Assembly (NCBI GenBank): GCA_023664605.1
Contig: JAMPFF010000001.1
Span: 189,204-234,325, forward strand
From: Clostridium sp.
GTDB taxonomy: Bacteria > Bacillota > Clostridia > Lachnospirales > Lachnospiraceae
Length of the DNA stretch: 45,122 bases
Direction of reading: 5' to 3'
Shown here piece after piece: positions 1,674-32,371 of the stretch. The translations under genes and the position numbers were made by a program. Under the pieces are notes generated by a model, which saw only the letters and a list, made by a program, of their open reading frames with translations, was not told the DNA's origin and did not search any database. Within the stretch, counting starts at the first letter, position 1, and each line of letters opens with the position of its first letter.

Positions 1674-1763
1674 TTGCATCCGGTTTTTAATTGTAGTAAT
1701 ATAAATAGTACGCGGTAATTTTGTACAAGACAGTGCAGACGCATAGAAAGGCGAGGTATTATA

Positions 1764-3128: not shown

Positions 3129-3129
3129 T

Positions 3130-3339
3130 CACGGAAATCAATTTTCAGTTTCATTCTTTTTGGAATGGCAGGACAGAGATAAATCCCTTGTCGGTACGCT
3201 TTCGCTTCGTGAAAAACACAGCGGCAGTAAATTCGTGAAAGACCTCATTAACTGCCGGTGTTTTTCAAGAACCTCCGCGGGATTTATCTCTGTCCTGCCG
3301 CCTCTAAACCAAAGTGATAACTAAAAATTGATTTCCGTG
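3130..3339. mobile_element. MITE-like palindromic element, copy 1, with 9-bp target duplication
   Basis: This 210-bp non-coding element has terminal inverted repeats starting CACGGAAATCAATTTT on both ends. CTGCATAGT is present directly on each side (3121-3129 and 3340-3348), a perfect 9-bp target-site duplication. Inside, 3167-3187 is the exact reverse complement of 3279-3299, GAAAAACAC pairs with GTGTTTTTC, and CGGCAGT pairs with ACTGCCG, so nearly the whole element folds back on itself. No transposase is encoded. Copy 2 lies at 9083-9323. A 9-bp duplication is used by several transposase families (for example ISLre2, IS4, IS256), so I do not assign one. Confidence 0.85.
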
Positions 3340-3357
3340 CTGCATAGTGGCAAAAGA

Positions 3358-3386
3358 TTGACAGAAAACCCGCTAAATGATATGAT
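3358..3386 (+). promoter_or_regulatory. Sigma-A promoter of tRNA-Leu
   Basis: A consensus -35 TTGACA (3358-3363), a 17-bp spacer and -10 TATGAT (3381-3386) place the start point near 3393, just before the tRNA at 3399. The -10 box is enclosed by an inverted repeat, CCGCTA (3370-3375) and TAGCGG (3390-3395). Confidence 0.85.
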
Positions 3387-3398
3387 ACATAGCGGCAA

Positions 3399-3479
3399 GC
3401 GGATGTGGCGGAATTGGCAGACGCGCCAGATTTAGGTTCTGGTGTCCACGACGTGCAGGTTCAAGTCCTGTCATCCGCA
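3399..3479 (+). tRNA. tRNA-Leu (UAG)
   Basis: This is a class II tRNA of 81 bases. The acceptor GCGGATG pairs with CATCCGC, the anticodon stem CCAGA/TCTGG encloses loop TTTAGGT (anticodon TAG, Leu), the variable arm is TGTCCACGACGTG, and the T-arm contains GGTTCAAGTCC. Discriminator A3479. CCA is not encoded. Its strong promoter lies directly upstream and a T-arm-derived terminator directly downstream. Confidence 0.96.
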
Positions 3480-3493
3480 GTTGAAAAAGAGAA

Positions 3494-3548
3494 AGAGTGG
3501 AAACAGGACTTGAACCTTGTGCAACGTCCTGTCATCCGCTCTTTTTTT
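3494..3548 (+). terminator. Terminator built from an inverted copy of the tRNA-Leu T-arm
   Basis: The stem is AGAGTGG (3494-3500) plus ACAGGAC (3503-3509) against GTCCTGT (3526-3532) plus CCGCTCT (3536-3542), ending in seven T (3542-3548). Positions 3503-3517 are the exact antisense of tRNA-Leu 3457-3471, and 3526-3539 repeat the tRNA 3' end 3465-3478. The A-rich left side also makes it usable as a terminator for the converging kinase gene, whose stop codon lies at 3547-3549. Confidence 0.85.
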
Positions 3549-4833: not shown

Positions 4834-4871
4834 AACAAGTGTGTTCCTTTCTTATTAAAACAGGTGTTATA

Positions 4872-5552
4872 TTAGGGCAGAATAAGCGCATATCCCACAC
4901 CCCAGACCGTTTTTATCTGTAAGGCGGAACCGACAGCTTTCAGCCGTCGGCGCAGGAAATGAATGTAGTTGTCCAGATTGCCGTTTTCTACTTCACTGTC
5001 CGGCCCCCATACTTTCAAAAGCAGGGTTTCACGCGCAATCGTCTGTTTTGACGTATGCAGGAAACTTTCCAGCAAATCCGCTTCGCGGCGCGATAACATA
5101 CAGTCGCCGTCCGGCCCTGTCAGGCACATTTCGCGGGGAGACCAGATAATGTCATGATAACGTATGATACCGTCGGACTGTGCGTTTAGGATGAGAGAAC
5201 GTCTTGTGACACAGCGTATTCTTGCTAACAGCTCTTCAAAATCAAAGGGTTTGACAAGATAGTCGTCCGCACCCAAATCCAGGCCGGTAATTTTATCCTG
5301 CAGCATACCGAGAGCGGTAATCAGAATCACGGGTGCGTTGACCGCCGCCTGCCGCAGTTCGGTCAAGACCTGCGTTCCCTCTATATCGGGCAGCATCCTG
5401 TCCAATAAGATAACGTCATAGATATTCTGCCTGCCATAATAGAGCGCTTCCTCGCCGGTATAGCAGGAGTCCGTCTGATACCCCCGCTTATGTAACTGCC
5501 ATGTTAAAGCCTGATTTAAGTTTTTGTCATCCTCGGCAAGTAAAATACGCAT
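4872..5552 (-). CDS. OmpR-family response regulator
   Basis: This 226-residue protein has an N-terminal receiver domain (acidic residues E7, D8 and D9, phospho-acceptor D51 in ILLDRMLPD, conserved K101 in YLVKPFDFEELLARI) and a C-terminal winged-helix trans_reg_C domain (about 130-226, with LSRREADLLESFL and a VWGVGYAL ending). The start ATG at 5552 has AAAGGAGA upstream on the minus strand. It is the first gene of the operon with the kinase at 3547-4833. Its leader contains a long inverted-repeat structure (5589-5757). Confidence 0.95.
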   Translation of the reverse strand: MRILLAEDDKNLNQALTWQLHKRGYQTDSCYTGEEALYYGRQNIYDVILLDRMLPDIEGTQVLTELRQAAVNAPVILITALGMLQDKITGLDLGADDYLVKPFDFEELLARIRCVTRRSLILNAQSDGIIRYHDIIWSPREMCLTGPDGDCMLSRREADLLESFLHTSKQTIARETLLLKVWGPDSEVENGNLDNYIHFLRRRLKAVGSALQIKTVWGVGYALILP

Positions 5553-5617
5553 GGGAAATCTCCTTTCTCATTTACGCCTATTAGATGATTGCGCAACTCT
5601 TTTTTCATAACTTTATG

Positions 5618-5757
5618 TTGTGCAATAGAAACAATATCGCAAGCAGGATGCTTTGGAACCGTCGGCGTTTTGGCGCTGTTTTTTAGCGCCTTATGCGCCG
5701 TTACGAGTGACAATGCAGCGCAAGCGTGCCCTGCGGTGATTTGTTTCTATTGTACAA
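5618..5757. repeat. 140-bp inverted-repeat element in the regulator leader
   Basis: TTGTGCAATAGAAACAA (5618-5634) is the inverted repeat of 5741-5757 (16 of 17 positions). Between them lies a nested hairpin: CGGCG (5663-5667) and GGCGCT (5672-5677) pair with AGCGCC (5685-5690) and CGCCG (5696-5700). It could be a second MITE type, but I see no target duplication. The left arm also pairs with ATTGCGCAAC at 5589-5598, giving two mutually exclusive folds in the transcript of the minus-strand operon. The rest of the gap (5758-5951) is AT-rich and probably holds the divergent promoters. I could not fix their boxes with confidence. Confidence 0.6.
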
Positions 5758-5951
5758 GAATGGTTACAAAATCTTAGTTTCGCACTCATCTATTGATTTT
5801 ATCCTATCATAAGATTCTTTAAAAGTCCTCTAAAGAAAACAGAAACAAGAAAATCTTAAAAAATATTAGAGAAAGTTTAGAGATTTTTCTGTTATTTTGT
5901 GTATACGGCAATGCAAATATTGACAGATTGTAAAAATAACGGAGGATATTT

Positions 5952-8309
5952 ATGAAAAGTAAAAAGTGGAGTAAAAAAGTTATCAGCCTGCTTCTGATAT
6001 GCGCTATGGCGTTTGCGCTGTTTGGCTGCAGCAAAGTCAGCGTGGCAGACAATGGGCAAATTAGTGACAGCAGTAATCAGGGCGGCGTAAATCAGGCACA
6101 GAGTGGAGAAAGTGGAAGCGGCGGCACGGGCGCAATGGGGCGTTATGTGGAAAAAGAGACGGATTTATCGGACAGGTTAAAAGACGCCAAAGGGCTTTAC
6201 CAATATGAAGACGGGAGCCTTGTCATTCCTGACGCCGTGCAGGGATTGTGGGTATCGCAGGATAACGGAGAGACATGGAATCTGGAGCAGCCGGACTGGA
6301 TGACGGATTTGCTGGCGAAGCAATATTATATCAGTGAAATAAAAGTATCGCCCGATGGCACGGTCGGAGTGATTTATGACCCAATAACAGAGGACGACGA
6401 TTATACGCCGGTTATGGATTTGATACTGCCGGACGGTTCACAGATACCGGTCGAGGTGGAATTGACAGAGGACGACAGGTATATCAGAGAAATGGAAATG
6501 ACAAAGGATAACCGTATCTTTATCCGTACCGCGATGGGAAATATTTATGAGGTATTTAAGGATGGCAGCGGAGAGATGACACTGCCGAGAGATGATTATT
6601 ATTCCGCGTTTTATGCGGAAGAAAATCTTATTATTAGAGACATGGATGGAGAGTATGAGCTGCCTCCCTCACTTTATGATATGGACGCGGGAGAATATAT
6701 AGAGGATGATGTGCTGACGGATTTTGTCAGTGAAAATTACAGCGGACGCTACTATAACGGAGACTACTATTGCTCTATGTATATTCTGCCGGATGGCGCT
6801 TCCGTCCTTTATCTGATAGGCGCTAAAGGAATCCATCGCCATGTGGTCGGCGGTAATATGATGGAACAGGTAGTGGACGGGAATCTGTCCATGTTAAGCA
6901 ATCCGTCTTATACCATCGTGTCGGCATTGACGCTGGAAGAGGATGAATTTATCGTTCTTTTTTCCAATAATAAACTGATTCGTTTTACTTATGATCCCGA
7001 TGTGCCTACCGTACCGGAGAATGTGCTTACCATATATAGTCTGCGGGAAGATGAGGATATGCGGCAGGCGGTTTCCATGTATCAGGCGAGAAATCCGGAT
7101 ATTTTCGTTTCTTATGAAATCGGTATCGCAGACGGAGAGGCAGTGACAAGGGAAGATGCGCTTAAGAAGTTAAACACCGAGATTATGGCGGGTACGGGTC
7201 CTGACCTTATTATGATGGACGAACTGCCGTTTGCTTCTTATGTAGAAAAAGGGCTTTTGCTCGATTTGACGGACTATCTGCGCGAATACAGTGCAAAAGA
7301 ACCGCTTTACGACAATATCATAGACGCGCTGAAAGTCGATGGAAAGGCATATATCGCGCCTGCCACATTCCATATTCCCGTGCTGATAGGAGAGAAAACG
7401 ATTCTTTCGGATATCACGGATTTAGACAGCTTCGGGAAAGCGGTAGAAACGCTTCATGGAGAGCATCCGGACGGTGATATTATTGGTATCTACGATGCAG
7501 TAGGGGTCATGAATCGTTTTGCCGCAGTGAGCGCGCCAAAGTGGCTGACGGAAAGCGGGACGTTGAATAGAGAAAGCATTGCTAAGTATCTGGAACAGTG
7601 TAAGCGTATTTACGATACACAGATGGAGGGCGTCAGCGACGATATTTTGGAGGCTTATGCAAGCCTGGATGAGGAGTACCACAAGACATACAGTGAATCT
7701 ATATGGAGAATAGACTGGACGATTGCGTCGGATATTTTTACTTATATCAGTGGAGATAAATATTTGTTAAGCGGCTGGCTTGCTGCGCCTTATGCCTATG
7801 ATGAATGTATCTCTCTGGAAAGAGCAAAAGGTTTTGAAGAGAGCGGATTTATAGATATGCAGGGAGAGTGCAGCCATGTATTTAAACCGAATACGCTTTT
7901 GGGCATCAGCGCAGCATCCACACAGCAGGACGCCGCAAAATCGTTTATGGATTTCTTCTTATCAAAAGAAGCACAGGAAACTTACTACAGCTTTCCTATC
8001 AACAAGGCGGCTTATGAGAGCCAGGCGGCAGTAGATGAAAATTATCTTTCCGAAGATGGCGCGTATAGTTATCTGTCGCTTTCAACGCAGGATGGCACGA
8101 CGCTGGATTTCACGGTTTATCTGGCAAGCGAGGAACAGACGGCGGCACTGCAGGAGATATTTGCCGCATTGGATACGGCGTATGTACGGGATGCGACATT
8201 AGAGGACGCCGTGTTTGACAACGGAAGCGCTTATATACGCGGAGAGGCTTCGCTGGAAGAGGCGCTTGCCGAGATTGAGAAGCAGGTAGCGATTTATATG
8301 GCGGAGTAA
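5952..8309 (+). CDS. Large lipoprotein with C-terminal extracellular solute-binding (family 1) domain
   Basis: This 785-residue protein has a lipoprotein signal peptide with lipobox ALFGC (Cys at residue 26), so it should be anchored outside the membrane. After a Ser/Gly-rich linker, residues about 60-350 contain an Asp-box-like motif (SQDNGETW) and short blade-like repeats that suggest a beta-propeller. Residues about 355-785 resemble a CUT1-type solute-binding protein (LKKLNTEIMAGTGPDLIMMD, a hallmark region). That is almost twice the usual binding-protein length. No permease gene lies beside it. It is divergent from the two-component system at 3547-5552, so it could be a sensor accessory or bind a ligand for permeases coded elsewhere. 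An SD of GGAGG precedes the ATG. Confidence 0.8.
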   Translation: MKSKKWSKKVISLLLICAMAFALFGCSKVSVADNGQISDSSNQGGVNQAQSGESGSGGTGAMGRYVEKETDLSDRLKDAKGLYQYEDGSLVIPDAVQGLWVSQDNGETWNLEQPDWMTDLLAKQYYISEIKVSPDGTVGVIYDPITEDDDYTPVMDLILPDGSQIPVEVELTEDDRYIREMEMTKDNRIFIRTAMGNIYEVFKDGSGEMTLPRDDYYSAFYAEENLIIRDMDGEYELPPSLYDMDAGEYIEDDVLTDFVSENYSGRYYNGDYYCSMYILPDGASVLYLIGAKGIHRHVVGGNMMEQVVDGNLSMLSNPSYTIVSALTLEEDEFIVLFSNNKLIRFTYDPDVPTVPENVLTIYSLREDEDMRQAVSMYQARNPDIFVSYEIGIADGEAVTREDALKKLNTEIMAGTGPDLIMMDELPFASYVEKGLLLDLTDYLREYSAKEPLYDNIIDALKVDGKAYIAPATFHIPVLIGEKTILSDITDLDSFGKAVETLHGEHPDGDIIGIYDAVGVMNRFAAVSAPKWLTESGTLNRESIAKYLEQCKRIYDTQMEGVSDDILEAYASLDEEYHKTYSESIWRIDWTIASDIFTYISGDKYLLSGWLAAPYAYDECISLERAKGFEESGFIDMQGECSHVFKPNTLLGISAASTQQDAAKSFMDFFLSKEAQETYYSFPINKAAYESQAAVDENYLSEDGAYSYLSLSTQDGTTLDFTVYLASEEQTAALQEIFAALDTAYVRDATLEDAVFDNGSAYIRGEASLEEALAEIEKQVAIYMAE

Positions 8310-8332
8310 TACAGCAAATGTTTCACATTGTA

Positions 8333-8361
8333 TTGATATTGCTGTCACAATCGGATATAAT
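8333..8361 (+). promoter_or_regulatory. Promoter of the toxin-antitoxin operon
   Basis: A -35 TTGATA (8333-8338), exactly 17 bases, and a perfect -10 TATAAT (8356-8361) lie 30 bases before the antitoxin ATG. Confidence 0.8.
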
Positions 8362-8390
8362 ATAAGTAGTAAACTTGGGAGGTGCGTTTT

Positions 8391-8684
8391 ATGGCTAAAA
8401 CTGCGAATATTAATGTCCGTATTGACCCGGAAACAAAAGCAAACGCTGAAAGACTGTTTTCCAGTTTTGGAATTACAATTACAGATGCTATTAATATATT
8501 TCTTCGTAAGTCCATTATGGAGGGTGGGCTGCCTTTTGAAGTGAAACAGCCACATTATAATATGGAAACAGAAAAAGCCATGAAAGAAGCCAGGGCCATT
8601 ATGGATGGCAGGATAGAGGGAAAACGATATGCTTCTGCACATGCGCTTTTTACAGAGTTGGATGCGGAGGAAGATGGTGAGTAA
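8391..8684 (+). CDS. RelB/DinJ-family antitoxin
   Basis: This 97-residue protein starts at ATG 8391, behind a GGGAGG site. An in-frame GTG 9 bases earlier falls inside the ribosome site, so I reject it. The N-terminal ribbon-helix-helix has the RelB/DinJ pattern ANINVRIDPETKANAERLFSS followed by FGITITDAINIFLRKS. The C-terminal part is expected to wrap the toxin and mask its active site. It normally represses its own promoter together with the toxin. Its stop and the toxin start overlap as TAATG, typical of coupled translation. Confidence 0.93.
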   Translation: MAKTANINVRIDPETKANAERLFSSFGITITDAINIFLRKSIMEGGLPFEVKQPHYNMETEKAMKEARAIMDGRIEGKRYASAHALFTELDAEEDGE

Positions 8685-8962
8685 TGCTGGAATTAGTGAC
8701 AACAGGGCAATTCCGCAAGGATTATAAGCGTATGAAAAAGCGCGGATGCGATATGGAAATGCTGGAAAAGATTATCGACGTACTTATGGCGCAGCAGCCT
8801 CTCCCGGAGCGTTGTCGAGACCATGGTTTGACAGGTAATTATGCCGGATTTCGCGAATGCCATATTTTGCCGGATTGGCTTTTGATTTATGCTATTGATA
8901 AAGGAAAATTAATATTGACTGCTTCCCGTACAGGAACGCATGCGGATTTGTTTGCAAAATAA
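8684..8962 (+). CDS. YafQ-family mRNA interferase toxin
   Basis: This 92-residue RelE-superfamily protein has all the residues expected for YafQ: H47 in the RDHGLTG segment, RECHILPDWLLIY (H60, D64), and the C-terminal SRTGTHADLF with H86 and F90. YafQ toxins cut translating mRNA at the ribosome. The gene begins at the A of the antitoxin stop codon. The full set of catalytic residues suggests an active toxin, so the antitoxin should be needed for viability. Confidence 0.93.
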   Translation: MLELVTTGQFRKDYKRMKKRGCDMEMLEKIIDVLMAQQPLPERCRDHGLTGNYAGFRECHILPDWLLIYAIDKGKLILTASRTGTHADLFAK

Positions 8963-8963
8963 T

Positions 8964-8991
8964 AAAACGGCTCTGACGAAGAGCCGTTTTT
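8964..8991 (+). terminator. Rho-independent terminator of the toxin-antitoxin operon
   Basis: A perfect 10-bp stem, AAAACGGCTC (8964-8973) with GAGCCGTTTT (8981-8990), has a 7-base loop and ends in a T-run. Its symmetric A/T flanks let it work on both strands. Confidence 0.92.
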
Positions 8992-9082
8992 GCATTTCAT
9001 CGGGCAAAAAGTGCAGCTTATCGGCAGCCCACTTGTTTTCCGGCGGAAAATATAATATAAAGAAAGCAAGGCAATCCTAAAC

Positions 9083-9323
9083 CACAGAAATCAATTTTCA
9101 GGTGTCACTTTCTTTTGAAACGGCAGGACAGAGATAAATCTCTTGTCGGTACGCTTTCGCTTCGTGGCAGATAATTTACGGAGTCAATTTTCTGTTAAAC
9201 ATAAGCGGCAGTAAATTCGTGAAAGACCTTATTAACTGCCGATGTTTTTCAAGAACCTCCGCGGGATTTATCTCTGCCCTGCCGACTCTAAACCAGAGTG
9301 ATAACTGAAAATTAATTTCCGTG
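9083..9323. mobile_element. MITE-like palindromic element, copy 2, with decayed 9-bp target duplication
   Basis: This 241-bp element is homologous to 3130-3339. The right half is almost identical to copy 1 (GCGGCAGTAAATTCGTGAAA and CCTCCGCGGGATTTATCTCT regions), while the left half carries about 30 extra bases near 9168-9205. Terminal repeats CACAGAAATCAATTTTCAG and CACGGAAATTAATTTTCAG differ at two positions. The flanks ATCCTAAAC (9074-9082) and TTCCTGAAC (9324-9332) match at 7 of 9 positions, consistent with an older insertion. It fills most of the 407-base gap before the LytTR gene. Confidence 0.8.
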
Positions 9324-9369
9324 TTCCTGAACAGGAATTGTCAGACAAAGGAAAGGCGCGGTTATTAAA

Positions 9370-9813
9370 ATGAAAGTCACACTACAGCAGATAGATACGG
9401 GGAATGAGGAAGCCATCATCCGTTACCGGCAGATGACGCAGCGGATAGAAGATATTGTGCAATATCTGGAGGGCAGGACGGAAAAAATTCCCGCCGTAAA
9501 AGACGGACAGCAGTTTCTGATAAACATACCGGATGTTATTTATTTGGAGAGCGTGGACGGCGCGACGTTTCTCTATACCCAGAACGAGGTGTACCGAATC
9601 GGGCAGACGCTGACCCTGTTTGCCGTATTATATGCGGATATGGGATTTTTCAGGTGTGCGAAATCGGTCGTTCTTAATATTTACAGGATAAGCAGGTTAA
9701 AAAGCCTCTCCGGTAATAGAATTGACGCCCGGATGGATAACGGGGAACATATCATTATTTCCAGACGTTACGCGGGAGAGTTAAGAAGAATCTTAAAGGG
9801 GGAGGAACGATGA
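9370..9813 (+). CDS. LytTR-domain DNA-binding regulator
   Basis: This 147-residue protein has no receiver domain. Residues about 43-143 form a LytTR domain, recognisable from IPDVIYLESVDGATFLYT, FFRCAKSVVLNIYRI and the end ISRRYAGELRRILKG. Stand-alone LytTR proteins followed by DUF3021 genes form known Firmicute regulatory pairs, where the membrane protein is thought to restrain the regulator. The next gene begins 4 bases before this stop (ATGA overlap) and encodes exactly that partner. The likely target is the ABC exporter downstream, and probably its own promoter. Confidence 0.9.
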   Translation: MKVTLQQIDTGNEEAIIRYRQMTQRIEDIVQYLEGRTEKIPAVKDGQQFLINIPDVIYLESVDGATFLYTQNEVYRIGQTLTLFAVLYADMGFFRCAKSVVLNIYRISRLKSLSGNRIDARMDNGEHIIISRRYAGELRRILKGEER

Positions 9814-10274
9814 AAAAAGGAAATAAAGCGGATAAAATCAAGAAATTTTTATCACTGGAAATTGGCATTGAGATAAAAGCCTGTCTGTACTTTGCGATTA
9901 TCCTGTTTTTCTATTTTGCTTATCGGCTCACACAGGGCAGCCTGGACGCGAGTATCATACAGATGATGGAAATTGTACTGACGGCGTATGCCATGAGTTA
10001 TTTACAGGTCTACCTTCTGCATAACTTTGACGAGTCGGAGCGGTTCGATAAAACCGTGGCGGGAGGGGCTTTTGGATGCACGCTGTTATATACGGCGGTA
10101 AGCTTTTTCTTTCGCTGGTACGACAGGAATCTGACGGCGACGCTGTGTTATTTCTTCTATATGCTATTTTGTTATGCGTGCGTATTCTTAATTTATAAAA
10201 TAAAACGTGATATTGATACCGCGCAGTTAAATCAGGAGTTGAAAACGTTTAAAAATAGGAAAGTTGACGATTAA
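9810..10274 (+). CDS. DUF3021 family four-helix membrane protein
   Basis: This 154-residue protein has four predicted transmembrane segments (about residues 27-42, 50-70, 87-103 and 112-130) between a basic N-terminus and a charged coiled C-terminal tail. Length, topology and its place directly behind a LytTR gene with a 4-base overlap fit DUF3021. Members are thought to act as membrane anti-activators of LytTR proteins. The biochemical activity is not known, and the signal sensed cannot be read from sequence. Confidence 0.85.
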   Translation: MKKGNKADKIKKFLSLEIGIEIKACLYFAIILFFYFAYRLTQGSLDASIIQMMEIVLTAYAMSYLQVYLLHNFDESERFDKTVAGGAFGCTLLYTAVSFFFRWYDRNLTATLCYFFYMLFCYACVFLIYKIKRDIDTAQLNQELKTFKNRKVDD

Positions 10275-10343
10275 ACAGTTACACACAGAGAACGCGATAT
10301 GCAGCAAGTCGTGATACATTTCAAAGCAGGTAAGGAGAGGAAT

Positions 10344-11198
10344 ATGGAACAAAGAAAACGTGAACCGGCAATCACAATTCATCACCTGACAAAAAACTAC
10401 GGTAGACACAGAGGCGTCAGAAATTTGTCTCTGCAAGTGGAGCAGGGGGATATCTACGGTTTTCTTGGACCAAACGGCGCGGGAAAATCCACGACCATCC
10501 GCACGCTTTTAGGTTTGCTTCATTTTAACGAGGGAGAGGTGCGGGTGCTTGGCATGGACGTGAAAGCGCAGCACGTCGAACTGTTAAGGAAAGTCGGCTA
10601 TATGCCGTCGGAGGCGATGTTTTATCCGGGCATGAAAGTCAAGGACGTCATTCGTCTTGCCGCGGATATGCGGGGACTGGACTGTTCTAAGGAGGAGGCG
10701 ATGTTATGCGAACGGCTTGCGGTGGATGTGGATAAAAAGATGGAGACGCTTTCTTTGGGGAACCGCAAAAAAGTAAGTATTGTCTGCGCGATGCAGCATA
10801 AACCGCGCCTTTTTCTCTTCGACGAGCCGACAAGCGGTCTGGATCCCTTGATACAGGCGGAATTTTTTGCGTTGCTTCTGGAATATAACAAGCAGGGAAC
10901 GACTTGTTTTTTGTCCTCCCATGTATTGACGGAAATCAAAAAGTACTGCCGCCATGCCGCCATTATCAAAGAGGGCGAAGTCATATGCGCCGATACGGTG
11001 GAAAATCTGACTAAGACAAATACGAAAAAAATCCATATGGTACGGGACGGCAGAGAGGAAAGCTTTGTTTATCAGGGGGATTTGAACGAGCTGTTTGCGG
11101 GCTTTGCAGGGCATAATATTACGGATATTACGATAGAGGAGGCGGATTTAGATGAAATCTTCCGGCATTATTATGAAAATGAATATAACGCTTTATAA
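10344..11198 (+). CDS. ABC transporter ATP-binding protein (exporter type)
   Basis: This 284-residue protein starts at ATG 10344, which has AAGGAGAGG 4 bases upstream. An ATG at 10299 in the same frame has no site. Walker A is GPNGAGKST (42-50), the Q-loop region is near GYMPSEAMFYPGMKV, the signature is LSLGNRKK (136-143) and Walker B is LFLFDEPTSGLDP (156-168), followed by SSHVLTEI. The arrangement matches the CcmA/BcrA-like exporter group. The permease gene overlaps its 3' end by 47 bases, so the two are translated together. Control by the upstream LytTR/DUF3021 pair is likely. The substrate is unknown, with antimicrobial peptide export or resistance a common role of such modules. Confidence 0.92.
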   Translation: MEQRKREPAITIHHLTKNYGRHRGVRNLSLQVEQGDIYGFLGPNGAGKSTTIRTLLGLLHFNEGEVRVLGMDVKAQHVELLRKVGYMPSEAMFYPGMKVKDVIRLAADMRGLDCSKEEAMLCERLAVDVDKKMETLSLGNRKKVSIVCAMQHKPRLFLFDEPTSGLDPLIQAEFFALLLEYNKQGTTCFLSSHVLTEIKKYCRHAAIIKEGEVICADTVENLTKTNTKKIHMVRDGREESFVYQGDLNELFAGFAGHNITDITIEEADLDEIFRHYYENEYNAL

Positions 11199-12667: not shown

Positions 12668-14611
12668 TTATTCCGCGTTGGATTCGTCTACTCTAATGCC
12701 TTGAAATTGTACCAGCGCTTGTGCTTCCTCCGTTAGTTCTTCCAGTTCGGGAATATGTCCTATTACATTTTCTGCAAGCCAGTCCATGGTGATAATTTCT
12801 TCCGGTTCCAAACTCTTGCCCGCCTCGCAGCGCACGACGCCGCCCTGCGCGTAAATCGGTCCGTCAAATGGCTGGAAAGCGCCGGCACGGATAGAGTTCT
12901 TTAAAAATTCAATGAGACGGTGGGTGCCGTGGGGCATATCCTGAGAGCAGATAACGTCTATAACGTCCGCTGACATTCCCCACCAATAGTTGACCGCTTT
13001 TTTGCCTTTCTGCGCATCCGCCTCCGTACCGCCGCCGCTGCACAGGTTTTTGATAATCCGCTCATAGAATTTGCCCCAGTGCCAGATTGGCGTCGCCAGA
13101 TTTTCCAGCGTTCCGTCCTCTTTTTTGGCGTAAAGACCATATGCTCTGGAGGCGTGCTTTGGCGTAATCATATCGCTGTCGGAGACAAAGACGATGCCCT
13201 CCTGTTGTAAACGCTCTCTGGCGTCCGGTCCTTTTACATTCGACCATTCCAGATATATCTCCACATAGGGATTTATCATTTTAGCGCCTAAAGCGAAAGC
13301 GTTGATATTCGCCAGCGTTCCGTAAATAGGATAATCCGCGACATAGCCGAGCTTGTCGGTTCTGGACAGCGCCGCGGCGATAGCGCCCATCAAAAACTTG
13401 GATTCGTACATTCTTGCATAATAAGTGCAGATGGAGGAATAGGACATTTTAATGGAGCAGTTGTATATTTTTACTTTCGGATGCTTGATGGCGGAACGTA
13501 CGCTCTGGTTCACCATCTGCGTTGCCGTTGTAAAAATAAGGTTACAGCCCGCTTCCACGGCATTTTCGATAGCGGCTTCTACCTCTTCTTCCGTATCGGC
13601 TTTATCAAATGCCATTGTTTCCAGTTTGCCCTCATATATCTGTTCTATGTACATCCGTCCTAATTCATGGGCATATGCCCAACTGGATGTGTCGGTTGTT
13701 TTCATATAAATAAACGCTATTTTGAGCGATTCCGGCGTAAGCGTTGCCGTAGGAATCAGGCGGTTTAAAATAGAGGACTTCGTTTCTTTCGTTTCTTCCG
13801 GATTCTGGACAAGTTCCACTTGATTACCTTTATCCGCAAGCGTAATTTCAGTCCACATCTTTTGAAGCTCTGGCAGCATTTCCTGTGCCGTTTCACCTTT
13901 GACATTATCATAGCCATAAATTTCAAGATATACTAAAAAAGCGTCGGAAACTTGTAAATCCAGCTTTTCCCCATGCGCTTTTTTAAACGCTTCGGCAAAA
14001 TTGTAAGTGGCGTAATGCAGATTCATCCTGTCATCATCATCCCATATCTCGTCCTCTTTTTTGCCCATTAACTTTAACAGCTTTTTATAGCTGCCCTCTT
14101 TCGTAAACCAGACGTCGTAACTTTGCGATACCTCGTAAAAATCCAGAAATTCATAGTATAGGCGGTTTTCTTTCTCATCTGATTTTCTGGGAACCAGACG
14201 GGTTACGGTTCCGGGAATACTGTATGTTTCCAGATATTTCATAACGCTGACGCGCTTGTTGCCCTCCTGAACGTAGAACTGGTTCATAAATTCGTAGGCG
14301 ATAATGGGGTCGCGGATTCCGTCCTCGATTTGGTGGTCGTATAGAGACGCCCATTTCATGCCAAACTCCGAATCCTCCGGAAGCAGGGGCATAAAGTTAT
14401 TGGCAAACGCGTTTGTCCGCCCCGCGGTTTTGGTTCCTACAATTTTGGAAAGGGGAATATCCATAACTCCCAGATTTTCGATTGCTGCTACCTCTGTATA
14501 AGATAAAATATCATCCAGTACCGGAAGATAGGGGTATTCTCCTTTGGTAAGCGCGGTCTGATAACTCCGCCTGCCCTGTTTTAATGCTGATGTGTATTCT
14601 GTTGCTGCCAC
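12668..14611 (-). CDS. Cytoplasmic BMP-family ligand-binding protein with ParB-like N-terminal region
   Basis: Residues about 295-610 of this 647-residue protein resemble the BMP (PnrA-like, nucleoside-binding) family: LKIAFIYM, EAGCNLIFTTATQM, DKLGYVADYPIYGTLANINA, GIVFVSDSDMITP. There is no signal peptide or lipobox, unlike normal BMP transporters. The first 290 residues contain NQFYVQEGNKRVSVMKYLE (about 109-127), which resembles the ligand loop of ParB/sulfiredoxin-like domains, followed by a helical linker. It lies in an operon with a metallophosphoesterase and has no permease or ATPase nearby. A role as an intracellular nucleoside or nucleotide sensor is my inference. The start ATG 14611 has GGGAGG upstream. 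Confidence 0.8.
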   Translation of the reverse strand: MAATEYTSALKQGRRSYQTALTKGEYPYLPVLDDILSYTEVAAIENLGVMDIPLSKIVGTKTAGRTNAFANNFMPLLPEDSEFGMKWASLYDHQIEDGIRDPIIAYEFMNQFYVQEGNKRVSVMKYLETYSIPGTVTRLVPRKSDEKENRLYYEFLDFYEVSQSYDVWFTKEGSYKKLLKLMGKKEDEIWDDDDRMNLHYATYNFAEAFKKAHGEKLDLQVSDAFLVYLEIYGYDNVKGETAQEMLPELQKMWTEITLADKGNQVELVQNPEETKETKSSILNRLIPTATLTPESLKIAFIYMKTTDTSSWAYAHELGRMYIEQIYEGKLETMAFDKADTEEEVEAAIENAVEAGCNLIFTTATQMVNQSVRSAIKHPKVKIYNCSIKMSYSSICTYYARMYESKFLMGAIAAALSRTDKLGYVADYPIYGTLANINAFALGAKMINPYVEIYLEWSNVKGPDARERLQQEGIVFVSDSDMITPKHASRAYGLYAKKEDGTLENLATPIWHWGKFYERIIKNLCSGGGTEADAQKGKKAVNYWWGMSADVIDVICSQDMPHGTHRLIEFLKNSIRAGAFQPFDGPIYAQGGVVRCEAGKSLEPEEIITMDWLAENVIGHIPELEELTEEAQALVQFQGIRVDESNAE

Positions 14612-25626: not shown

Positions 25627-26775
25627 ATGACACAGGAAAATCAGACGAAAGAAAAACTGACAGAATCAAAGCTGACAGCGCCAGAGCTGGCGGAGTCAAA
25701 GCCGCCGGTAGCAAAGCCGGCAGAGTCGGCTGCCAAAATTCTGGTGGTAGACGACGTGGACGCCAACCGCTTTGTGCTGCGGGATATCATCAACGAGATG
25801 GGATGTCAGCCGGTTCTCGCGGAAAACGCCATGCAGGCGTTTAAAATGATAGACAGGATTCATCCGCAGCTTATTATTCTGGATATTGCGATGCCGGGAA
25901 TGGATGGCTATGAGTTTTGTAAGCTGATGAAAGAAAATGCGCATACGAGAGATATTCCGATTATCTTTATTTCAGCCTTTGACGACCCGTCGGATGTTGT
26001 GAGGGGATTTGACCTCGGCGGTGAGGATTATATTACGAAGCCATTTATCCCCAAGGTTGTCAAGGCGAGACTGCAGCTTCATCTAAAACTGTATGACGCC
26101 AATAACGGCATGATGGAAATGAACAGGCGGCTGCAGGCGTCATTGAGCGAACAGCTCCACCAGTTGGAAATGGAGAAAAAGAATGTTCTCTATGCGCTGC
26201 TGCGGGTAGCGAGAGAAAACGCCTGTTATGATGTGGATCATATGGAAAGGCTTTCCTATAACTGCCGGATACTGGCGGAGGCCATGCAGTTGTCGGCGGA
26301 CTACAGCTCCTTTATTTCAGACGCTTATATCGAGACGATAGAGCTGGCCGCGCCGCTTTGCGATTTGGGAAATGTGGCGATACCGACGGAGCTTTTGCAA
26401 AAGAAAGAATCCCTTTTACCGGAGGAAGTAAAGGTCATAAGAACCCACGCCGCGACCGGAGCAAAGATTCTTCAGGATATTAAGGAGACGGGAGACTATA
26501 ATGACTTCCTTCAAATGTCGATTGATATTGCGCACTATCACCATGAAAACTGGGATGGCAGCGGTTATCCCTGTGGGAAAAAGGGGGAAGAGATTCCCTT
26601 ATCCGCGCAGATTGTGGCGGTAGTCAGCGCGTACTGCGCCATGACGGAGAACCGTGCCTACAGGGATTCCTACCATATCGAAAAGGCGTTGTCGATGATG
26701 GAGGAGGACGCCGGAAAGAAATTTAACCCTGACATTTTTGGAATTTTACGAAAGATATACAGACAACTGCACTAG
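25627..26775 (+). CDS. Response regulator with degenerate HD-GYP domain
   Basis: This 382-residue protein has a Lys/Pro/Glu-rich N-terminal tail (1-35), a receiver domain (36-155; acidic V-D-D at 41-43, acceptor D86 in LIILDIAMPG, K138 in YITKPFIP), a helical linker, and an HD-GYP-like domain (about 190-380). The GYP part is intact (HHENWDGSGYP, 305-315), but the HD dyad region LCDLGNVAIP (244-253) has Cys in place of the metal-binding His and Asn in place of the following Lys. The usual YDALT is YCAMT. HD-GYP proteins normally degrade cyclic di-GMP. This one may only bind a ligand. It is the first gene of an operon with two hybrid kinases. Confidence 0.9.
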   Translation: MTQENQTKEKLTESKLTAPELAESKPPVAKPAESAAKILVVDDVDANRFVLRDIINEMGCQPVLAENAMQAFKMIDRIHPQLIILDIAMPGMDGYEFCKLMKENAHTRDIPIIFISAFDDPSDVVRGFDLGGEDYITKPFIPKVVKARLQLHLKLYDANNGMMEMNRRLQASLSEQLHQLEMEKKNVLYALLRVARENACYDVDHMERLSYNCRILAEAMQLSADYSSFISDAYIETIELAAPLCDLGNVAIPTELLQKKESLLPEEVKVIRTHAATGAKILQDIKETGDYNDFLQMSIDIAHYHHENWDGSGYPCGKKGEEIPLSAQIVAVVSAYCAMTENRAYRDSYHIEKALSMMEEDAGKKFNPDIFGILRKIYRQLH

Positions 26776-26810: not shown

Positions 26811-29681
26811 TTGGAATTTTTCAATCAAAATAAGGAAAATCAGAGAACAAGCGAACGCTTCGTGATAATTTTATACAGTTTGTATACGCTTAGTTTATGT
26901 GTCGGTGCGGTAAAATTAAAGTGGGATGCATGGGTTCCGGTCGTTATGATTGCGCTTCTTGCCGCCGGTTGGGGGATATTTTTGACAAAATACAGAAATC
27001 CATATATAAGAGCAACAATAACAACTGTTATAATACAGGTGACGGTGATTTTGTATGCCGCCAAAATAGATAACCTGTCCAATGTGATACCGATATTTAT
27101 TGCACTTTCTGTTTTAATTGCTATTTATGGTTATTCGCAACTTCTATGGGGAACGATAGTTTCCCTGTTGTTTATGATTTTTTATCATTGCGTTGTCACC
27201 GATACGGTATGGACGATGCCCGGCGAGGCGCGCGCGCATCTTTTTTTCCAGCTTGGGAATATTTTTTCTGTGGAGTTTGTCCTTTATGTCTGGTTAAAGT
27301 TTCGGAAAGAAAGAAACGAGCAGGTTCATAAAATCATTGACGCGCTTATGGAGGCGGAACAGAGTAAAGATGATTTTCTCGCTAACGTCAGCCATGAAAT
27401 CCGCACGCCGGTTAATACTATCTGCGGAATGAGTGAAATGGCGCTGAGAGAGCATGATTTGGAGAAAATGCGGGAGGAGGTTTATGATATCCGCGACGCC
27501 GGGCATAATCTGATGTCGTTGGTCACGGATATTCTGGATTTTTCCCAGTTACAGCAGGGGAAAATGAATCTGGAGGAAGAGGCGTATAATATTACTTCCA
27601 CCATCAACGATATCATCAATGTGGCGATGGCAAGAAAAGGGGATAAGCAGATTGAATTGATTGTAGACTGCGATGCGAATATACCGAGCGGTCTTTTCGG
27701 TGATGAAAAGAAGATACGAAGAGTCATCATGAACCTGGTGGATAATGCGATTAAGTTTACTAACGAAGGCGGCGTGATTATCCGCATTTATACGAGAAAA
27801 GAAAATTATGGCGTGAATCTGTGCATATCGGTGAGAGATACCGGAATCGGCATCGCGGAGGAAAGCTTGGAAAAATTGTTTGAAAGTTTCAGTCAGGTTG
27901 ATACGAGAAGAAACCGCCAGGAGGGCGGCGTCGGCCTTGGACTGGCGATTTCCAAGGCGCTGGTGCAGAAGATGGGAGGTACGATTACGGTCAAGAGCCG
28001 TCTCGGCAGAGGAAGTATATTCCGCTTTGTTGTACCGCAGAAAGTACTGGATGAAAAGCCGATTGGCGAGGTAGAGAACAGGGAGAGATTGAATATTGCC
28101 GCCTACTTTGACATGGAACAGTTCGATATGATGACGATTCGTGACGAATATACGAACCTGATTGCCAATATGGTGCGCCAGCTTCGTGTAAGATGCCATG
28201 CTTGCCGTAATCTTGCCGAATTGATGAGAAGAGAGGCGAATGAAGCGTTTACGCATATCTTTATCAGTCTGGAAGAATATCAGGAGGATGAAGCCTATTT
28301 TGACGCGCTTGCCAAAACGACCAAGATTATTATCGTGATTGACAGGCCAAGGGAAAAATATCTTTCCAATCCCAATATGATAAGACTCTATAAACCGTTT
28401 TATATTCTGCCCGTTGTGTCCATTTTAAACGGCAGCAGCGGTTCGGAGGGCGGCACACAGATGATTCGCCCCGGAAAGTTTATAGCGCCGGGCGCGCATG
28501 TGCTGGTTGTAGACGATAACAGAATGAATATCCGCGTGGTAGAGGGATTGTTAAAAGAATATCAGATTAAGGTGACATATGCCACCAGCGGGCAGGAAGC
28601 GTTGCAGGTAATTGAAAATATGGCCTATGACTTTGTCTTTATGGATCATATGATGCCGGAAATGGACGGTGTGGAAACTCTGCACCGTATCCGGGATAAA
28701 GTGGGCCATTATTATCAGAAAGTGCCGATTATTGCATTGACGGCTAATGCCGCTCCCGGCAACCGCGAGATGTTTTTAGAGGAAGGGTTTGACGATTTTG
28801 TGTCAAAACCTTTGGAAGTATCCGTCTTAGAACGTGTGCTTAGGCGGAACCTGCCGGAAGAAAAGCTTATTTTTACCACGGAAAATGATGCGCCAAAGGA
28901 AAATGCAGAGCAAAAAACAGAGGAAAAGCCAGAGAGGCAAGAGATAGGGAAAAAAGAAGCAGAGGAGACAAAGGCAGAAGAAGCCGAGACAGAGCGGCAA
29001 GCGGCAGAGGAGAAAGAAAAATTTGCCATCGGAGACTTGGATGTGGAAAAGGGTATGCTTTACTGCGGCGGTAAGGAGGAGTACATAGAGATTTTGGCGG
29101 CATGTTACGAGGAGAAAGAAGAAAACCGCAGTCTTTTCGCGGAATTGTTTGAAAAGCAGGACTGGACGAATTATACGATTAAAGTACATGCCCTAAAGAG
29201 CATGATGCAGAATATCGGCGCTTCCCCTCTTTCCGCGAAAGCCAAGGCGTTGGAAATGGCGGGCAAGAAAAACGATATTGATTATATTATGAAAAATCAT
29301 GAGGATATGCTGGCGGAGTATGAGCGGGTGATGGCACAAATAAAGACAAGCCCGTTAGTGCCGACCAAAGAGATGGAAGCTGTTACAAAGGCGGACGGCG
29401 TGGAAACGGAAACGGCGGATATGCCGGAATTGAGCGAGGATGAATTTGATAGCATACTGACCGGTTTCGAGGATGCCGTGTATGCGCTGGACGGGGAAAA
29501 GATGAGGACGCTGTTGTCCGATATGCAAAACTGCCGCTATCATCATGCGGCGTTGGCGCAAAGACTGGATGTTGTGAAAAAGAAAGTGGAAATGACGGAT
29601 TATATGTCGGCTCTGGATGCGCTTGCCAATATCCGGGAAGAACTGCGTAAAGAGACGGAAAGGAGCGCGGATATATCATGA
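26811..29681 (+). CDS. Hybrid histidine kinase with receiver and Hpt domains
   Basis: This 956-residue protein starts at a TTG with GGAGGGG 5 bases upstream. Residues about 17-165 hold roughly six membrane helices. HisKA has H195 in ANVSHEIRTPVN, and the ATPase domain has NLVDNAIKFTNEGG, DTGIGIAEE and GVGLGLAISKA. An apparent degenerate receiver-like region (about 425-545) is followed by a complete receiver (about 560-680, D612 in FMDHMMPEMDG), a Glu/Lys/Ala-rich linker (about 690-740), and an Hpt-like domain (H793 in KVHALKSMMQNIG). The C-terminal 130 residues are acidic and helical. It could pass phosphate on to the receiver encoded at 25627-26775. The gap between the two genes is 35 bases. 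Confidence 0.92.
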   Translation: MEFFNQNKENQRTSERFVIILYSLYTLSLCVGAVKLKWDAWVPVVMIALLAAGWGIFLTKYRNPYIRATITTVIIQVTVILYAAKIDNLSNVIPIFIALSVLIAIYGYSQLLWGTIVSLLFMIFYHCVVTDTVWTMPGEARAHLFFQLGNIFSVEFVLYVWLKFRKERNEQVHKIIDALMEAEQSKDDFLANVSHEIRTPVNTICGMSEMALREHDLEKMREEVYDIRDAGHNLMSLVTDILDFSQLQQGKMNLEEEAYNITSTINDIINVAMARKGDKQIELIVDCDANIPSGLFGDEKKIRRVIMNLVDNAIKFTNEGGVIIRIYTRKENYGVNLCISVRDTGIGIAEESLEKLFESFSQVDTRRNRQEGGVGLGLAISKALVQKMGGTITVKSRLGRGSIFRFVVPQKVLDEKPIGEVENRERLNIAAYFDMEQFDMMTIRDEYTNLIANMVRQLRVRCHACRNLAELMRREANEAFTHIFISLEEYQEDEAYFDALAKTTKIIIVIDRPREKYLSNPNMIRLYKPFYILPVVSILNGSSGSEGGTQMIRPGKFIAPGAHVLVVDDNRMNIRVVEGLLKEYQIKVTYATSGQEALQVIENMAYDFVFMDHMMPEMDGVETLHRIRDKVGHYYQKVPIIALTANAAPGNREMFLEEGFDDFVSKPLEVSVLERVLRRNLPEEKLIFTTENDAPKENAEQKTEEKPERQEIGKKEAEETKAEEAETERQAAEEKEKFAIGDLDVEKGMLYCGGKEEYIEILAACYEEKEENRSLFAELFEKQDWTNYTIKVHALKSMMQNIGASPLSAKAKALEMAGKKNDIDYIMKNHEDMLAEYERVMAQIKTSPLVPTKEMEAVTKADGVETETADMPELSEDEFDSILTGFEDAVYALDGEKMRTLLSDMQNCRYHHAALAQRLDVVKKKVEMTDYMSALDALANIREELRKETERSADIS

Positions 29682-32371
29682 AAGAAAAGCTGAAAAATAT
29701 ATACGAAATGATATACGGAAGGGATTATGAACTTCGGGAGCGGATTTTCCGGATGATTATTCTGGTGGGCGGCGGCCTTGCTCTGATGGGGATTGTAGAA
29801 TGTATTGCGATTATGGATGTAAAAATTATCGTCCTGCCGTTAATTTTGCTTTTGCTGGTATTGGGAACGGAACTTTTGATTACTTTCAAATACCGAAAAA
29901 TAGATATTGCGGCCATTATCGTGGGTTTTTTAATTATCCTGTTAGTGTTTCCCGCCATGTTCTTTTTAAGCGGCGGCCTGGAGGGCGGTGCGGTTGTTTG
30001 GTTTGCGCTGGGATTGTTTTATGTGTTTTTGATGTTTTCCGGGAAGCGTCTGGCGTTCTTTTTGATATTATCGATTGGCATTGATATTTTCACTTATGTG
30101 TACGGTTATTATCATCCGGAGGTCATTACGCCGATGGATTCCAGAGCGGCGGCTTATTTTGACTCGCTTTTTGCCGTGATGGCGGTAGGGCTTGCCGGCG
30201 GGGCGATTTTAAAGGTACAGATGAAGATGTTTGAAAACGAACGCAGGGTTGCATGGGAGCAGCAAAAGGAGATAGAGAGGATAAGCGAGTCCAAGAATAG
30301 TTTTTTTGCCAGCATGAGCCATGAAATCCGTACGCCTATCAACACGATTATCGGTTTAAATGAAATGATTATCAGGGAAAGCGGCGAAGAGGCGACCAAA
30401 GAATACGCGGCCAATATCCAGAGTGCAAGCAAGATGCTTTTGAATCTGGTAAATGATATTTTAGACCTTTCGCAGATGGAAATGAAAAAAATGGAAATCA
30501 TTCCGCTCGAGTATCAATCCGCGGAGTTATTCGGCGCATTAATCGATATGATAAAGGTGCGTCTGCAGGAGAAAAAACTGGAATTTCAGGTAGATATTGA
30601 TGAAAACATCCCCTCGGTATTGTGCGGCGATATGAAAAGAGTAAGCCAGGTGCTTCTAAATATCCTGACAAATGCGGCAAAGTATACGCAGGAAGGGTCA
30701 GTAACGCTGTCCGTACACGTGGAAGCGGCACAGGAAGATTCCGTTTTGCTGGTGGTGTCTGTGAGGGATACCGGTATCGGCATCCGTAAAGAGGATTTGG
30801 AGCATATCTATGATTCCTTTAAAAGGGCGGATGCCCGTAAGAACTTAAAGGTGGAGGGAAGCGGACTCGGCCTTTCCATTACCAAACAACTGGTGGATAT
30901 GATGGGCGGCGAAATCACGGTGGACAGTATTTATACAAAGGGTTCTGTTTTTACGGTAACGCTGCCGCAGAAAGTAGTGGATAAAACGCCGATTGGCGAT
31001 GTAAAATTCCTGCATCAAAGGAAGGGAAGGACGGATGTATACAGGCAGAGTTTTGAGGCCCCGGAGGCGCGTATCCTGATTGTGGATGACAATCCGATGA
31101 ATTCTATGGTGGAAAGCAAGCTTTTAAAAGAGACCAAGATGAAAATCGACATTGCCGAGAGCGGCGCGCAGTGTCTGGAAATGACGAAGCGCAAGTATTA
31201 TCACGTGATTTTACTCGACTATATGATGCCGGAGATGGACGGCGCACAGACGCTACGGGAAGTGCGCAGGCAGGAGAACGGACTCTGCCGGGATTCGGCG
31301 GTTATCGTTTTGTCGGCCAACTCCATAGCAGAAGCCGGAAAACAGTACTTGGAGGATGGATTTGACGGTTATCTGGAAAAACCGATTCAGGGAGACGCCA
31401 TGGAAGCGGAAATTCTGCGGTTTCTGCCGGACGATATTATCGAGTACCGGGCGGAGCCTGCTGTATTGCAGGAGAATAACGAAATACAGAGAATCTCCCA
31501 CCATAAAAAGAAAAAAGTATATATTACAACAGACTGTGTCAGCGATTTGCCGGAGTCTTTGATAGATAAATACGATATCGGTATGATATATTTCTATATT
31601 AAGACCGACCATGGCAGATTTGCCGATACGCTGGAGATTTCTTCGGATAACTTAATCCAGTATATGACGGATACGACGAGCAATGCCTATGCGGACAGCG
31701 TTTCGCTGGAGGAATACGAGGACTTTTTTGCCGATGTATTGACACAGGCGGAACAGGTTGTCCATATTTCCATGGCAAGAAATGTCGGAAAAAGCTATGA
31801 AGTTGCCGTCAGTGCGGCACAGGGCTTTGACCATGTGCATGTGATAGATTCCGGACAGATTTCCTGCGGGCAGGCGTTAATTGTATTGTATGCGGGAAAA
31901 CTGGCAATAGAGGGATATTCGGCGTCGCAGATATGCGAAAAAATAGAAGGAATGAAAAAGCGGGTAGAATCCCGCTATATGATGCCGTCTGCGAAAATCT
32001 TCTATGAACGCGGCTTTATCGGCGCGGCTCCCGCCAGATTATGCTCGCTGTTCAGAATGCATCCTGTTATGAAGATGAGCCAGAGCCGGATGATAGTGAT
32101 GGGCGCAAGGTGCGGCAGAATGGAGGGTGCATGGAAACGGTTCATACACTGGCATTTGCTGCGTAAGGAGAAAATCAATAAAGACATTGTCTTTATTACC
32201 CATGCCGGATGCAGTGTGGAACAGCAGGAGTTAATCCGTCATGAGGTGCTGCGCTGCGTGCCGTTTGAAAGAGTCATCATGCAGAGAGCATCCGTTTCCA
32301 TTGCCTGCAATTCCGGTATCGGAACGTTTGGATTGGCATATTATGTGAATACAAGCGAAGCGGACTTATAA
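29678..32371 (+). CDS. Hybrid histidine kinase fused to a C-terminal DegV domain
   Basis: This 897-residue protein overlaps the previous stop by 4 bases (ATGA). It has about six membrane helices (residues 22-190), HisKA with H215 in SMSHEIRTPIN, an ATPase domain (ILTNAAKYTQEGS, DTGIGIRKE, GSGLGLSITKQ), and a receiver (about 465-590, D514 in ILLDYMMPEMDG). Residues about 608-897 form a full-length DegV-like domain: VYITTDCVSDLPESLIDKY, SMARNVGKSYEVAVSAAQG, VIDSGQISCGQALIV, and the end IGTFGLAYY. DegV proteins bind fatty acids. Several motif positions differ here (TDS is TDC, SGTY is GKSY, the C-terminal HTGPG is NSGIG), so the ligand may differ. I know of no standard family with this arrangement. 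Confidence 0.9.
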   Translation: MKEKLKNIYEMIYGRDYELRERIFRMIILVGGGLALMGIVECIAIMDVKIIVLPLILLLLVLGTELLITFKYRKIDIAAIIVGFLIILLVFPAMFFLSGGLEGGAVVWFALGLFYVFLMFSGKRLAFFLILSIGIDIFTYVYGYYHPEVITPMDSRAAAYFDSLFAVMAVGLAGGAILKVQMKMFENERRVAWEQQKEIERISESKNSFFASMSHEIRTPINTIIGLNEMIIRESGEEATKEYAANIQSASKMLLNLVNDILDLSQMEMKKMEIIPLEYQSAELFGALIDMIKVRLQEKKLEFQVDIDENIPSVLCGDMKRVSQVLLNILTNAAKYTQEGSVTLSVHVEAAQEDSVLLVVSVRDTGIGIRKEDLEHIYDSFKRADARKNLKVEGSGLGLSITKQLVDMMGGEITVDSIYTKGSVFTVTLPQKVVDKTPIGDVKFLHQRKGRTDVYRQSFEAPEARILIVDDNPMNSMVESKLLKETKMKIDIAESGAQCLEMTKRKYYHVILLDYMMPEMDGAQTLREVRRQENGLCRDSAVIVLSANSIAEAGKQYLEDGFDGYLEKPIQGDAMEAEILRFLPDDIIEYRAEPAVLQENNEIQRISHHKKKKVYITTDCVSDLPESLIDKYDIGMIYFYIKTDHGRFADTLEISSDNLIQYMTDTTSNAYADSVSLEEYEDFFADVLTQAEQVVHISMARNVGKSYEVAVSAAQGFDHVHVIDSGQISCGQALIVLYAGKLAIEGYSASQICEKIEGMKKRVESRYMMPSAKIFYERGFIGAAPARLCSLFRMHPVMKMSQSRMIVMGARCGRMEGAWKRFIHWHLLRKEKINKDIVFITHAGCSVEQQELIRHEVLRCVPFERVIMQRASVSIACNSGIGTFGLAYYVNTSEADL

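Follow-up and report, generated by a model that had tools for sequence, protein, structure and literature searches.

The window analyzed here, a stretch of 45,122 nucleotides from a Clostridium sp. contig, encodes an 897-aa protein (29678..32371, + strand) in which a hybrid histidine kinase, a receiver, and a complete DegV domain are joined in one chain. DegV proteins are acyl carriers for phospholipid synthesis. We lean, with slightly better than even confidence, toward the view that a FakB-type carrier has been recruited here to sense a ligand in the cytosol for a phosphorelay split between two kinases. An earlier note on this DNA, made from the sequence alone, had suggested that the kinase could sense a ligand in the cytoplasm, and as an inference this is still the best reading; the present analysis adds to it a partner kinase, an Hpt domain that relocates between the two kinases, a variable third gene, and separate DegV genes coupled to kinases.

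The open reading frame runs from an ATG at 29678 to the stop at 32371 with zero internal stops, so the single continuous frame that the earlier note had described is real, and the membrane helices, HisKA, ATPase, receiver, and full-length DegV domain that it had read along this frame were all recovered. Six membrane helices are predicted at residues ~19-182 (29732..30223) from the full-length AlphaFold model and hydropathy, and in that model the sixth helix extends unbroken into HisKA, as far as residue 234. Pfam places HisKA at residues 206-268 (30293..30481; E 9.9e-18), HATPase_c at residues 317-432 (30626..30973; E 4.1e-27), and the receiver (Response_reg) at residues 466-578 (31073..31411; E 1.3e-22), all on the + strand. 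A linker predicted to be flexible (residues 595-609; 31460..31504, +; pLDDT <50 in the full-length model), with low identity between relatives, leads to the DegV domain (31514..32344, +), which was assigned by Pfam, TIGR00762, and the AlphaFold model. The Pfam search of the protein returned, within residues 605-897, the DegV match at residues 613-889, with an E value of 4.2e-33 and 115.3 bits against a cut-off of 27, spanning positions 1-278 of the 280 in the Pfam profile, and the NCBIfam DegV model TIGR00762 scored 130.9 bits against the 897-aa protein (cut-off 99.7). HAMP, PAS, and GAF domains gave no match in the kinase up to a Pfam E value of 1, nor at that threshold did any cytosolic sensor domain besides DegV, which supports the sensor reading, as DegV is then the one recognized domain in this kinase that could bind a ligand in the cytosol.

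The window protein has the sequence hallmarks of a hybrid histidine kinase, namely the HisKA histidine, the HATPase_c boxes, and the receiver Asp and Lys. The phospho-acceptor His215 and the receiver residues Asp514 and Lys568 are each kept in 69/69 aligned fused proteins, these being the window protein and 68 others left after thinning, at 90% identity, the 75 full-length named fused proteins drawn from the best 80 named loci. The N- and G-box residues of HATPase_c are among the invariant columns in the alignment. Among the NCBIfam matches listed (25 of 151 families), the kinase models TorS, BarA, LuxQ, and ArcB scored highest, and the kinase equivalog models were far under their cut-offs.

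The C-terminal part likewise belongs to a known family, the DegV/FakB proteins, by its full-length profile match over the curated cut-off and by its fold. Modeled alone with AlphaFold, it gave a mean pLDDT of 92.5 and a pTM of 0.90, and the top PDB matches to the model were lipid-binding DegV/FakB structures. In FakB1 of Staphylococcus aureus, Thr62, Ser95, Ser171, and His270 form a hydrogen-bond network with the fatty-acid carboxylate and Arg173 packs against the fatty acid, according to one report (PMC8892158). Another (PMC9136124) describes Arg173 as shared by every FakB and indispensable with FakA, the R173A variant as inactive with FakA while retaining fatty-acid exchange, and Arg205 as key to binding both FakA and the membrane. 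Measured against these descriptions, the window domain has neither the two arginines of a FakB serving as fatty-acid kinase subunit (Arg173 is Phe780 and Arg205 is Cys812) nor the carboxylate network (Thr62 is Ala672, Ser95 is Gly704, Ser171 is Arg778, and His270 is Asn878). These positions were mapped through a sequence alignment to 6mh9, whose A121I change sets the numbering offset, and the Arg205 equivalent was placed via Glu202/Lys203, its position being that given by sequence alignment and residue numbering only. Because the carboxylate-binding residues are all gone, a free fatty acid is unlikely to be held in the window protein as it is in FakB1. Service to FakA is unlikely too. If the domain senses, a hydrophobic ligand would be likely, be it still an acyl chain or something new.

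These replacements extend well beyond the window. We scored five FakB1 positions (Thr/Ser62, Ser95, Arg173, Arg205, and His270), leaving out Ser171, which the standalone sample does not conserve either (Gly in 24/25). The window domain scores 0/5, and 123 distinct fused domains score 0 (41 domains), 1 (29), 2 (39), or 3 (14) and never more, so the changed ligand-motif positions remarked upon in the earlier note are confirmed and generalized. By comparison, 25 standalone DegV proteins score five (21 proteins), four (3), or three (1). This control comprises 20 proteins picked for their closeness to the fused profile, together with five encoded in the window's own genome, two of which (L004 and L005; L and G numbers are our handles for loci and genomes) have gaps at position 270 in the scoring and Tyr and His there in another alignment; the separate Asn-type DegVs of L113 and L190 were excluded from it. 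Arginine occupies the 173 position in 30/123 fused domains versus 25/25 standalone ones and the 205 position in 2/123 versus 23/25. At the His270 position, 113 of the 123 fused domains have Asn, one (L141) has His, and nine have Ser, Thr, Val, or Ile, while at the Ser95 position Gly (70 domains) outnumbers Ser (46). The fused clade has near-invariant residues of its own (T643 in 121 of 123, F648 in 122, E653 in 121, E681 in 121, and S872 in 120), and members of clades other than the window's retain Ser/Thr at 62 and Ser at 95. The altered motifs are, as the alignments indicate, a subfamily-wide shift and not random decay. That the FakB1 residues have been lost while the kinase and receiver residues are kept lends support to a sensory role for the domain.

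The same losses could be read differently, with the domain as a pseudo-carrier that no longer binds a ligand and serves as a scaffold, docking the two kinases or another protein. The disappearance of all five FakB1 residues from the window protein is in keeping with this, the near-invariant residues could make a new protein surface, and separate DegVs are encoded beside the partner kinase. However, the fold is intact, lipid-bound structures are its best matches, and a binding site may persist, given the Ser/Thr62 and Ser95 of the other clades; we regard a pure scaffold as unlikely, though deserving of some weight.

A partner for the DegV kinase is encoded directly upstream (26811..29681, +), a second hybrid kinase with the order HisKA-HATPase_c-receiver-Hpt by ORF and Pfam analysis, listed as 956 aa from a TTG start, the end of its gene overlapping the start of the DegV-kinase gene by 4 bases (ATGA). 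The partner's Hpt domain (residues 760-824; 29088..29282, +) scores 19.9 bits in Pfam, below the cut-off of 24.6, and its His793 is kept in 76/76 aligned partners. Among the best 80 named loci, the partner lies upstream of the DegV kinase in 75/75 testable ones, that is, those reaching far enough upstream (73 detected via ORF, L111 and L113 via tblastn), with partner ORFs that are incomplete in several (cut by the contig end in L058 and L118, short in L093 and L130, and matching partially in others). Of 20 wider loci from other genomes, 19 have the partner and L054 does not. A partner search of 61 genomes gave 41 matches of at least 485 bits, and comparison by eye with the fused-protein matches indicated that 38 of them adjoin a DegV kinase; of the remainder, that in L189 leads to a kinase cut by the contig end, that in G026 lies at a contig edge, and that in G023 (L190) accompanies a separate DegV. 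The six genomes of the genus in which the fused protein was not found include a single one with such a partner match, G023.

The pairing is constant, and the Hpt is found on either member. In another clade the DegV kinases are longer and bear their own Hpt, with 17/99 Lachnospiraceae matches lying in frames of 1115-1166 aa. The Hpt on the DegV kinase of G077 scores 31.3 bits in Pfam and that of G278 scores 20.1 bits, under the cut-off of 24.6, and both have partners without a detected Hpt. For 15 further long DegV kinases, assessed by alignment, the Hpt histidine is invariant (15/15), and their partners all end after the receiver at 676-695 aa (14/14, one partner lying beyond the contig end). 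In L048 the neighbor combines in one chain HisKA, HATPase_c, two receivers, an Hpt match of 24.5 (cut-off 24.6), and HD-GYP. The exception is L184 (G064), whose partner has no detected Hpt and whose DegV kinase begins inside HisKA. Since the Hpt lies on the partner or, elsewhere, on the DegV kinase, each pair would have one relay, and the DegV kinase and its partner seem from their sequences to form it together.

Upstream of the partner gene is a response regulator with an HD-GYP domain (25627..26775, +), recognized by sequence comparison and degenerate in the window's clade. In the window, L041, L061, L065, and L094, HD is changed to CD, GK to GN, and the downstream Asp to Ser, with GYP kept, whereas all seven domains compared from other clades have the canonical residues. 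An active HD-GYP phosphodiesterase requires the HD metal ligands and the downstream Asp, a set that is not intact in the window's regulator, and it is likely a pseudo-enzyme, standing beside a DegV domain that is likewise without its functional residues. In 71 of the best 80 named loci (the other nine being too near a contig end), the third gene is a response regulator with HD-GYP in 37, MCP-like in 24, and a bare receiver in 6, with none matched in 4. A bare receiver gene also lies between the HD-GYP regulator and the partner in L076 and L090, Pfam confirmed the MCP-like neighbor in one case (L188), and in family f66 the neighbor, scanned in two of the three loci, is receiver-GGDEF-receiver, with HD-GYP in one. 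HD-GYP as a constant output is thus ruled out, and because the third gene varies, no single output pathway can be named. Sugar-phosphate genes were also dropped as a functional context: in the window's clade, a phosphofructokinase gene lies upstream in 8/8 wider loci (L037-L044), with GH94 in L037 and L038, but such genes were unmatched in 12 wider loci of other clades. Downstream of the DegV kinases of L182 (7389-8156, -) and L184 (8287-9030, -) is a gene for a small protein with ~130 unassigned residues followed by a C-terminal receiver. Elsewhere in the window, 12668-14611 (-) encodes a 647-aa protein with a PnrA/Bmp substrate-binding match at residues 297-458 and no evident signal peptide, the first 290 residues of which look ParB-like by eye.

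Several observations count against the sensor reading. Domains that follow a receiver are usually output domains, and DegV is placed after the receiver. The carboxylate-binding residues are gone from the window protein, the third gene varies and the window's HD-GYP looks inactive, L054 is truncated and has no partner, and the L184 partner has no detected Hpt. The first of these points would suit a role for DegV as the output itself, with phosphorylation of the receiver controlling its action, for example, the release or capture of an acyl chain, and the receiver-linker-DegV order is constant across the aligned fused proteins. We nevertheless consider this improbable, as the pairs have an Hpt of their own and a receiver-bearing regulator stands beside 43/71 testable loci among the best 80 named; moreover, the residues that the FakB1 work ties to use by FakA are lost, and between clades DegV (34-42% identity) diverges more like the membrane part (24-30%) than the kinase core (52-59%).

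A FakB that still works while tethered, handing fatty acid to FakA with the kinase part merely positioning it at the membrane, is very improbable. The DegV fold is complete and the genome does contain a FakA-like gene, but only ~2 kb from that gene lies one of the five further DegV genes of the genome, and the equivalents of Arg173, Arg205, and His270 in the window protein are Phe, Cys, and Asn, with R173A FakB1 reported to be inactive (PMC9136124).

The fusion is widespread within the family. Strong matches to the DegV subfamily (E 1e-66 or better) were obtained in 73/397 sampled Lachnospiraceae genomes, representing 63/334 genera, and 91/99 of these Lachnospiraceae matches sit in frames of at least 490 aa, a count that uses frame length as its criterion, without Pfam, beyond the matches inspected individually; five of the eight in shorter frames (<490 aa) were inspected. 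Within the genus, 31/37 genomes, the window's own included, carry the fused protein, at 67-92% identity in the window's clade and 39-45% in other clades, and it was not found in G008, G019, G022, G023, G030, and G036. The 31 carriers include one with a truncated protein (L054, in G013, without the membrane part or HisKA) and one whose DegV part is broken across two frames (L033, in G021). The contigs of the best 80 named loci, a set that partially overlaps the other loci, mostly carry the label Lachnospiraceae or that of a genus such as Roseburia or Acetatifactor, and the few with other labels (Alistipes, Gastranaerophilales, and Ruminococcus) are metagenome bins. For 79 of these loci, the frame holding the DegV part is either of kinase length or interrupted by a contig end; in L113, which is the same locus as L208, the DegV part is split off, kinase and DegV being divided by overlapping frames through either a frameshift or a true split. 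Outside the family, one other family of the same order was positive (G280; 295 genomes searched), and outside the order, one other family of the same class (G628, G461, and G387; 391 genomes searched). A one-off fusion is ruled out by this recurrence across orthologues, named loci, and 73/397 genomes.

Eight other genomes (L008-L015) encode complete orthologues with 67-92% identity, all free of internal stops, and the dN/dS of the DegV part is 0.027-0.124 (seven pairs), which places the domain under selection, purifying selection being evident in the kinase part as well. The intact orthologues and low dN/dS together rule out both a chance frame and an assembly chimera. The assembly is a draft in 78 contigs, but an assembly or annotation artefact has next to no probability given the purifying selection on both parts and the same architecture in many independent assemblies, including that of strain D16-51 (L089), which is not marked as a metagenome assembly; for the family as a whole, an artefact or frameshift is ruled out by the intact frame, the orthologues, and the dN/dS.

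The fused domains share a common origin in two quick trees, both with SH-aLRT support only. In the first, a maximum-likelihood tree with the fused rows thinned to 93/123, the fused domains and two split ones are separated from the 25 standalone DegVs by a branch with an SH-aLRT of 100 and a length of 0.83. The second, with 48/123 fused rows, takes in 15 Hpt-bearing relatives as well as four separate DegVs (L209-L212), each encoded directly behind a gene for an HK-receiver-Hpt kinase. These four fall outside the fused clade, which includes L113 and L190 (SH-aLRT 99 for the fused clade and 100 for all together). They have Asn at the His270 position, no Arg205, and Lys/Arg at 173, but Thr/Ser62 and Ser95 are retained. 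A receiver-GGDEF protein is encoded next to two of the four. They are apparent pre-fusion intermediates, and the simplest course suggested by the trees and motifs would lead from a carrier to a separate kinase-coupled subunit, then to a single fusion, and later to splits (L190 and perhaps L113). The L190 operon (G023; 3979-11057, -) is rearranged and encodes a kinase, a response regulator with HD-GYP, a kinase-receiver protein, and a separate Asn-type DegV whose gene overlaps the last kinase gene. A further arrangement is found in L180 (G482; 687-6284, -), where an ordinary His-type standalone DegV directly precedes a regulator of 1570 aa with the order Ser/Thr kinase-AAA-GAF-LuxR; here a DegV may have become linked to a regulator independently.

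For the window protein, we continue to favor the cytosolic sensor, on the grounds that the fold is kept, the residues reported to be needed with FakA are lost, and a complete relay is encoded alongside. The constant partner, the relocating Hpt, and the branching of the separate DegVs outside the fused clade support this reading as well. The membrane-bound DegV kinase and the adjacent HK-receiver-Hpt kinase would form one complex, in which occupancy of the tethered DegV domain, or its contact with the membrane, would tip the HisKA of the same protein toward kinase or phosphatase activity. Phosphate would pass from His215 to Asp514 and on to whichever Hpt the pair has, the partner's or, in the clade with long DegV kinases, that of the DegV kinase. 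From there it would reach the response regulator encoded nearby, which has HD-GYP, though some lineages have GGDEF or a bare receiver instead; in still others, the third-gene position is taken by a chemotaxis-receptor-like gene. We infer from the sequences that DegV senses, that its ligand is an acyl or lipid molecule, that phosphate flows in this direction, and that the two kinases make contact. A link from lipids to a kinase has precedent in S. aureus, where fatty acids inhibit SaeRS signaling, though via another route, according to one report (PMC5539427). A fuller version, which we hold tentatively and at somewhat under an even chance, is that these proteins constitute an undescribed class of lipid-status sensor, in which a carrier became a separate subunit coupled to an HK-Hpt kinase, lost its FakA-related residues, and was fused once to a second kinase. 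The resulting relay of two kinases, its Hpt free to change place, would feed c-di-GMP or motility outputs in gut Lachnospiraceae. With the head-group site as altered as it is in the window's clade, the ligand there might be a fatty-acid amide, ester, or alcohol or another hydrophobic gut molecule.

If this is true, a large DegV subfamily has left its carrier job for a phosphorelay, a second function for the fold, and the path from enzyme subunit to sensor is traceable with apparent intermediates still alive. The fusion may turn an intracellular lipid signal into a response, which would give common gut bacteria a candidate sensor of lipids inside the cell, and the constant pairing with a moving Hpt offers a direct test of how two hybrid kinases share a relay. 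A search of the open-access literature by title found no description of a DegV-kinase fusion, and curated databases may list the architecture. The kinase and DegV parts are each of a known kind; we have seen no earlier description of their combination, of the clade-wide loss of functional residues, or of the pairing in one relay.

Unlike the FakB/DegV proteins of PF02645 and TIGR00762, the domain described here is not free-standing, has lost the FakB1 functional residues, has its own near-invariant set, and is bound to a kinase operon. With hybrid histidine kinases the protein has HisKA, HATPase_c, receiver, and phosphotransfer residues in common, but a C-terminal DegV replaces the Hpt, which in most clades comes from the adjacent second kinase. 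DhaQ, the DhaK-family co-activator of the Lactococcus lactis Dha operon, works together with a transcription factor and, unlike the window's DegV, is not fused to a kinase. The closest parallel to the proposed relay may be the GacS/RetS/LadS networks, in which more than one hybrid kinase feeds one Hpt; there the kinases are encoded apart and have other sensor domains, whereas here they are adjacent genes, one of them with a cytosolic DegV domain.
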